From Synechocystis salina LEGE 00031 (GTDB lineage: Bacteria; Cyanobacteriota; Cyanobacteriia; Cyanobacteriales; Microcystaceae): a DNA stretch of 64,000 nt. The notes under the pieces are model-generated. The model saw only the letters and a program-made list of their open reading frames with translations. It was not told where the DNA came from and searched no databases. Shown here piece after piece: positions 22,318 to 29,445 of this stretch; within the stretch, counting starts at the first letter, position 1, and each line of letters begins with the position of its first letter. Where the stretch lies: the NCBI RefSeq assembly GCF_015207985.1, contig NZ_JADEVV010000007.1, forward strand, positions 1 through 64,000, read 5' to 3'. The position numbers were made by a program, and so were the translations under genes.

Positions 22318-22719
22318 CTACCAAATGTAACAAAGGATTTCGCCCCCAATGCCCTGGCGACGGGCTTCCCTATCGGTCATGATGCCGTGGGAGGTGGAAA
22401 CAATGGCGATGCCAATGCCGCCCAACACCCGGGGAATTTTTTTGGAAGGGGCATACACTCGCAAACCGGGCTTACTAACCCGCTGGAGGGTATTGATCAG
22501 GGGCTGGCGGGTCTTGCCTTTGTACTTTAAAGTGAGCACTAAAGTACGACTAATGCCTTCGCCGGTTTCAGCATAGTCTTCGATAAACCCTTCGCTTTTG
22601 AGCACCTTGGCAATGCTCAGGGTCATTTTAGTGGTGGGCACCTGGGTAGTGCTATGTCTCACCGCACAGGCATTGCGGATGCGGGTGAGCATGTCGGAAA
22701 TTGTGTCTGTTGAAGCCAT
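22318..22719 (-). CDS. rpsH: 30S ribosomal protein S8
   Basis: S8, 133 aa, starting [20 protein letters not shown]. The C-terminal signature [20 protein letters not shown] is intact. No rpsN (S14) gene lies between rplE and this gene. Confidence 0.97.
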
Positions 22720-28425: not shown

Positions 28426-29067
28426 CTAGCCCCGACCAACGGTTTTAGCGGGGGTGATATTCAAAAGAGTGCCGGGCTTACCGGGCAGGGCCCCTTTGAT
28501 GATCAGCAAGTTCCGTTCCGCATCCACTCGCACCACCGTTAAACGGCGCACCGTAACCTGGGACGCACCATACTGACCGGCCATTCTTTTACCGGGATAG
28601 ACCCGACCAGGGGTGGTACCAGCCCCAGTGGAACCGGGCAAGCGGTGGTTTTTAGAACCGTGGGTCATGTTACCCCGACGGAAATTGTGGCGCTTTTGGT
28701 AACCGGCAAAACCGCGACCCATGCTCTGGCCAGCCACATCCACCAGGTCTCCAGCTTGGAAAATGTCCGCTGTGACCGCATCCCCAGCCTGTAGACTGGG
28801 AGCTTCCGTCAAACGGTACTCCTTCAAATGGCGGACAGGGTCAGTGTTGGATTTTTTCAAATGGCCCAGTTCGGGTTTGGACAAGGCCTTTTCTTTAACG
28901 GGCAAAAAACCCACCTGTACGGCATTGTAGCCATCAGTGTCCTGGGTTTTAACCTGGGTAACGGGACAGGGCCCGGCTTGCACCACCGTCACAGGAATGG
29001 AAATGCCGCTTTCTTGATCAAATATCTGGGTCATGCCCAGCTTAGTTCCTAAAATACCGATAGACAC
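28426..29067 (-). CDS. rplC: 50S ribosomal protein L3
   Basis: L3, 213 aa, first gene of the superoperon. I start at GTG 29067 ([17 protein letters not shown] follows), six bases after GAGGG, rather than at the TTG two codons before, which abuts the ribosome site. The signature [20 protein letters not shown] (with one-letter tolerance) is near 140. No rpsJ gene precedes it; in cyanobacteria S10 lies elsewhere with tufA. Confidence 0.96.
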
Positions 29068-29410
29068 GGTCAACCCTCTGCACTAAATAATTAATGTGAA
29101 TAAACAAACAGGAAACACTCCAGACATAAAGCAGAGACCCCAGACAAATGCCTCTGGTCAATGGCTTTGAGCCCGATAAATAACTGATTTAGTTACGTCG
29201 ATGGAGCGTTTCAATCAAGCTTGGCTTGAGAGACCACCTTGTGTCCTAGCGGTAGGGAGAGTTAGTCCTACATGGGCCCAGAAGGTGGATAACCCTAGTT
29301 CCTGGTCAGACTTAGAAACCCTATGGCATTCCAGTATCTGCAGGGGGTCTTCAAAAATAGCAGTTTAACGTTTTGATATTACTCGATCTAATATCCAGTT
29401 TTGACCGCGA
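29068..29410 (-). ncRNA. Long structured leader of the rplC operon
   Basis: From the predicted start near 29410 to the rplC start there are about 340 bases without a coding frame. On the minus strand a 7-bp stem CCACCTT/AAGGTGG (29287-29281 and 29240-29234) encloses an inner hairpin GTAGG/CCTAC. A second hairpin CCAGA/TCTGG lies near 29158-29141. This is unusual length for a cyanobacterial leader and suggests post-transcriptional control of the ribosomal genes, or a separate small RNA. It does not match any riboswitch or RNA family that I can name. Confidence 0.45.
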
Positions 29411-29416
29411 TTAACC

Positions 29417-29445
29417 ATCATAGCCATAAAGGGAACCCCCGTCAA
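29417..29445 (-). promoter_or_regulatory. Promoter of the ribosomal superoperon
   Basis: Minus strand: -35 TTGACG (29445-29440), a spacer of exactly 17 bases and -10 TATGAT (29422-29417). Both boxes differ from the sigma-70 consensus by one base each, so this should be a strong housekeeping promoter. Confidence 0.8.

Follow-up and report, generated by a model that had tools for sequence, protein, structure and literature searches.

The 345-base leader ahead of rplC in Synechocystis salina LEGE 00031 is very probably an autogenous control region, to which ribosomal protein S8 would bind so as to repress the downstream ribosomal-protein superoperon. That the leader is real and conserved can be regarded as confirmed; a conserved S8-type site within it, and the link of that site to S8, are supported by sequence comparison, from which we infer binding by S8 and feedback on the operon. 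All positions refer to the window, that is, the whole stretch of 64,000 nucleotides analysed.

The rplC leader and its operon

The 5' part of the superoperon comprises the following features:

29417 to 29445, minus strand: promoter, with a -35 box TTGACG (29445-29440) and a -10 box TATGAT (29422-29417) at a spacing of 17 (10 of 12 consensus matches)
29399 to 29411, minus strand: conserved first transcribed bases ATCGCGGTCAAAA (relatives: GATYGTGRCCAAAA), kept right after the -10 box in relatives
29068 to 29411, minus strand: leader RNA, the 5' UTR of rplC, published as ncl0380 (from the promoter position and PMC10989929)
29074 to 29079, minus strand: Shine-Dalgarno sequence AGAGGG of rplC, read from the sequence and kept in relatives
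28426 to 29067, minus strand: rplC (L3), first gene of the superoperon, with a probable GTG start at 29067

The promoter that the initial annotation had proposed (TTGACG, 17 bases, TATGAT) lies at 29445-29417 of the minus strand, as it had reported, and sites of the form TTGnnn-17/18-TAnnAT align ahead of rplC in both the genus and the family. Promoter-like sites within 3 kb are not enriched (4 observed vs 2.6 expected). The promoter places the transcription start near 29411, about 345 bases ahead of the probable rplC start, and the bases with which the transcript begins, following the -10 box (GATYGTGRCCAAAA), are conserved family-wide. Translation of rplC probably begins at GTG 29067 and not at the upstream TTG 29073, since homologues have GTG or ATG at that place. 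A TTGTCTAG-like sequence is conserved 5' of the Shine-Dalgarno sequence, 20-35 bases before rplC, in many relatives (L008, L009, L012, L022 and others). The region had also been described as free of coding frames, and indeed zero minus-strand open reading frames of at least 40 amino acids lie wholly inside the leader.

Judged from its own sequence alone, the leader stands out only mildly, a weak signal (MFE of -97.2, z of -1.86, 4 of 100 shuffles equally good), and an Rfam search of the window gave zero matches. The leader is convincing because of comparison: promoter and hairpins align across the genus, and the promoter together with the upstream hairpin aligns across the family.

The published names at the locus are sll1799 for rplC and slr1894 for the divergent gene. 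Genes for L4, L23, L2, S19, L22, S3, L16, L29, S17, L14, L24, L5, S8, L6, L18, S5, L15 and SecY, on to rpoA, lie 3' of rplC on the same strand, with names read from the translations and S8 alone confirmed by a structure match:

22318 to 22719, minus strand: rpsH (S8), the proposed ligand; an open reading frame matching solved S8 structures (E 1e-41), in the cluster and on the strand of rplC

The encoded protein is a normal uS8 with its STS motif. In the genomes compared, rpsH lies 6-7.5 kb downstream on the same contig and strand, and in the window it shares the gene cluster and strand of the site, which, as in an S8 operator, would thus be located within the S8-encoding transcript. Co-transcription itself is taken from the literature, an 18-gene ribosomal-protein unit being described for strain 6714 (PMC5386190).

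An S8-type site in hairpin A

The most widely conserved hairpin of the leader lies just 5' of the CCACCTT/AAGGTGG hairpin that had been flagged at the outset, and was scored with R1, a covariance model built from the leaders:

29301 to 29344, minus strand: hairpin A, S8-type site, with GAUACUG (29338-29332) opposite CUAAGUC (29315-29309); R1 score 32.3 bits (E 8e-7), covariation, and identity with the S8 site of 16S helix 21

That hairpin A mimics the helix 21 docking site, with S8 as its predicted ligand, is well supported. The S8 site in helix 21 of the organism's own 16S rRNA consists of GCAAGUC (593-599) and GAAACUG (639-645), and the leader shares all conserved bases of its internal-loop core; the two differ at base 641 (U in the leader, A in the organism's 16S) and in the 593/594 flank, and their strand order is reversed. 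The leader forms the structure expected of an S8 operator, namely an asymmetric internal loop with A640-U598, G597-C643 (29311/29334), A596-U644, A595 and an unpaired A642 (29335). At base 641 the 16S site of E. coli has U and its operator has A, and thus both cyanobacterial leader variants have counterparts among known S8 sites.

Conservation and covariation in cyanobacteria

A total of 108 distinct rplC upstream regions were collected. A plain MAFFT alignment of 18 regions, made before the motif was chosen, contained an invariant GATACTG together with a TAAGTC/CAAGTC partner. Of 142 oxygenic cyanobacterial leaders, 140 carry the strict core GA[AT]ACT...AAGTC ahead of rplC vs 2.4% of mononucleotide shuffles, many of these leaders being close relatives or same-species repeats and hence not 142 independent cases; the two leaders without it are L188 and L193, the latter carrying GAAACU...CAGUC. 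In alignment A1 the invariance of the core holds by construction, because its sequences were picked by the core, and the informative part is the unselected flanking stems, which covary: double changes occur in 7 of 12 pairs, and the covariation score of 0.416 (vs 0.227, sd 0.015, when shuffled and at most 0.209 when slid) was reached by 0 of 500 shuffles. The initial annotation had proposed aligning the leader across cyanobacteria and analysing its covariation, and the outcome is a conserved structure with covarying stems around an S8-type core.

R1 matches one place in the 3.97-Mb genome and one strong place in the window, where the strict core likewise occurs once, in the rplC leader. Across the phylum it scores in 115 of 386 genomes, a set that includes many non-photosynthetic members and was scanned with strict filters under which weak matches are lost. 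Second R1 matches in some cyanobacteria (L209-L217) have none of 12 ribosomal-protein genes nearby and were set aside; in four genomes of genus g41 (L214-L217), the second match is a conserved S8-like hairpin, GGGAAACTGAGGTAGAATCAGTTTTAAGTCCC, away from the ribosomal-protein genes tested. S8-core strings (AAGTC...GAAACT) also occur ahead of a 16S gene (L165:190-259), possibly by chance.

The motif before rpsH in a sister family

One weak outgroup match to R1 (G063) sat directly before rpsH, which prompted a test of 30 members of that family, a non-photosynthetic sister family in which photosystem I genes are absent from the 13 members checked. Searching the 30 rpsH loci (99 kb) with R1 gave 11 matches, each immediately ahead of rpsH; 11 of the 30 loci contain the strict core vs 0.6% of shuffles. 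Several further loci have CUAUACUG...UAAGUAG, in which the G639-C599 pair has changed in a compensatory way. The combined alignment A2 has a covariation score of 0.595 (vs 0.177, sd 0.021), and its G639-C599 pair is GC in 36 sequences and UA in 4, a pairing percentage that is partly by construction because those rows were chosen for the core and some pairing. The sister-family hairpin ends at the ribosome-binding site of rpsH itself. The weak R1 matches of four other outgroup genomes (L205-L208) lie away from S8 and were put down to chance.

These results bear on whether another ribosomal protein regulates the operon, L3 or L4 by analogy with the E. coli S10 leader, so that the S8-type motif would be coincidental or serve another RNA-binding protein. 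The first genes are indeed rplC and rplD, and the E. coli S10 operon is controlled by L4 (PMC2704228); against this, the S8 site is matched at every core base and the motif stands directly before rpsH in the sister family, and we consider such an arrangement improbable. The earlier proposal of a new ribosomal-protein leader, with L3 and L4 as possible binders, is thus upheld as to the kind of element and sharpened by sequence to S8; L3 and L4 are not the suggested ligands, and the transcript itself had already been published.

Published transcripts from the locus

An 'rplCD operon leader' was predicted in marine picocyanobacteria as cluster 5 of Axmann 2005 (PMC1242208), and in Synechocystis an sRNA from the sll1799 5' UTR is reported as ncl0380 (PMC10989929). 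These open-licence papers and the report on Nc26 (PMC1242208, PMC5341163, PMC10989929) name, in the text found, neither a ligand nor an S8 motif for the leader. The description of cyanobacterial leaders for this operon as poorly described was therefore a fair one, the 2005 marine prediction having come without a ligand. Relative to the open-licence literature found, S8 as ligand, the phylum-wide operator and its position at the head of the superoperon are new.

The leader might instead encode a separate trans-acting small RNA, similar to an actuaton, and not act mainly in cis. Discrete RNAs are reported from the locus (PMC10989929, PMC5341163) and actuatons exist in Synechocystis (PMC5386190); however, sll1799 is not among the entries seen of the published actuaton table (PMC5386190), and the most widely conserved element is a protein-site-like motif always found upstream of rplC, not a free-standing gene. 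We regard this possibility as very unlikely. The suggestion of a separate small RNA holds insofar as ncl0380 and Nc26 are reported as sRNAs, but both derive from the 5' UTR.

Proposed mechanism of S8 control

Since hairpin A copies the 16S docking site and is near-universal in oxygenic cyanobacteria, S8 probably senses its own excess and turns the operon down. Free 16S rRNA, while available, would capture S8; in excess, S8 would bind hairpin A, and the bound protein would lower expression of the superoperon from rplC onwards, including rpsH. In Synechocystis the readout is most likely premature termination or truncation at a strong 3' stem before the ribosome-binding site, which would leave the leader as a separate RNA:

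29101 to 29210, minus strand: 3' stem domain (29210-29114) with a U-rich tract (29113-29101) behind it, a candidate attenuator

The stability of this stem (z -3.73), the U-rich tract and the coincidence of the domain with Nc26, which maps to the 3' part of the leader near 29106-29216 with an accuracy of some 3 bases (PMC5341163), fit truncation or attenuation. Terminator-like stems occur in 81 of 134 leaders vs 103 of 268 shuffled sequences; with enrichment this mild, general intrinsic terminators across leaders were rejected, and attenuation is kept as a candidate readout. Across species the site stands 120-550 bases from the start codon, a long and variable distance that counts against S8 control as proposed here.

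A serious and close alternative to termination is masking of the ribosome-binding site: S8 would bind hairpin A and act on translation or mRNA decay, with a long-range fold hiding the ribosome-binding site or processing of the leader being triggered. Several observations favor this reading, which we hold to be a real possibility if somewhat short of an even one: the sister-family hairpin lies right against the rpsH ribosome-binding site, S8 acts as a translational repressor in E. coli (PMC10931766), most bases of the Shine-Dalgarno and start region of the window leader are predicted to be paired (0.74-1.0), and a conserved picocyanobacterial CGCUGGCG close to the start has complementary segments on both sides of hairpin A. 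Attenuation, on the other hand, better fits the reported uncoupling of leader and operon RNA after UV, when ncl0380 leader RNA rises and the operon falls (PMC10989929), and the pairing between the transcript 5' end and the start of rplC, present in L001, is not kept in L004, L005 or L075. Such pairing was accordingly discarded as a genus feature, being good in L001 and not kept across the genus. In the picocyanobacteria of family f36 (L253-L282), two conserved motifs flank the S8-type hairpin, GGCCAG on its 5' side and CAGCCAGCUGA on its 3' side. Each is complementary to the CGCUGGCG that immediately precedes the start codon, and these motifs may form a switch at the ribosome-binding site.

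Comparison with known systems

The leader agrees in sequence and predicted structure with an S8 operator and would function as one; its location and the range of genes it would control set it apart from the operator of E. coli. Like the spc operator at the E. coli rplE start, it belongs to an operon encoding S8 and has the internal-loop core (GAAACUG/CAAGUC there, GAUACUG/CUAAGUC here) in the same 5'-to-3' strand order, the E. coli order agreeing with the reported triple A+80-(A+81-U+11) (PMC4176348). Unlike that operator, the cyanobacterial site has a short loop, is found in the 5' leader of rplC, far from start codons, and would bring the S10 and spc genes under joint control; the rplE start in the window is free of such a site, the only core of the window being that of the rplC leader. 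R1 gives the E. coli rplE operator no score, probably because its loop is much longer, and the comparison with K-12 was therefore made base by base. The L4-controlled E. coli S10 leader is likewise a long structured leader ahead of a homologous operon, but the cyanobacterial operon starts at rplC and not rpsJ (no rpsJ lies between promoter and rplC), and its conserved motif is S8-type. Cluster 5 of Axmann 2005 and ncl0380/Nc26 concern the same locus, predicted in marine picocyanobacteria and detected as a transcript in Synechocystis, and differ in having been published, in the text found, without a ligand or S8 motif.

According to a 2024 review, the regulation of spc in B. subtilis and other species is unknown, and its phylogeny has seen no advance (PMC10931766). 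The present analysis addresses this question, the regulation of the largest ribosomal-protein operon outside Proteobacteria, by proposing a ligand, at the level of single bases, for an entire phylum, Prochlorococcus-type and reduced 1.4-Mb genomes among them. S8 control would explain why the Synechocystis leader RNA is uncoupled from the operon under stress, and a single operator type would occupy three positions (operon head, rpsH and rplE). More broadly, it is an evenly balanced proposition that S8 serves as master autogenous regulator for the fused S10-spc superoperon across oxygenic cyanobacteria, acting via an attenuating leader and taking over a job split between L4 and S8 in E. coli, with the operator having shifted, as the phylum evolved, between the ribosome-binding site of rpsH (in non-photosynthetic lineages) and the operon head.

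Hairpins B and C

Two further hairpins lie between hairpin A and the 3' stem domain:

29234 to 29288, minus strand: hairpin B, flagged earlier, CCACCTT/AAGGTGG (29288-29282/29240-29234) around GTAGG/CCTAC (29271-29267/29256-29252), clade-specific
29215 to 29229, minus strand: small hairpin C, TCAAGC/GCTTGA, from the fold, its sequence visible in L001-L003 and L005

Hairpin B is present exactly as the initial annotation had described it, with CCACCTT/AAGGTGG around GTAGG/CCTAC. As the key element of the leader it fails: it is confined to one clade, made up of the genomes of genus Synechocystis, L014 and the Snowella bin L075, and does not correspond to the S8-type site, and it was rejected as main element given only seven related loci and an unremarkable folding energy (z -0.75 alone). 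Its apical 27 bases (ATGTAGGACTAACTCTCCCTACCGCTA, window 29273-29245) are nearly invariant in the seven loci, including L002-L005, L014 and L075, and the outer stems differ. The 20-base core of the apex occurs once in the genome without mismatch, and the loop looks like a candidate second binding site.
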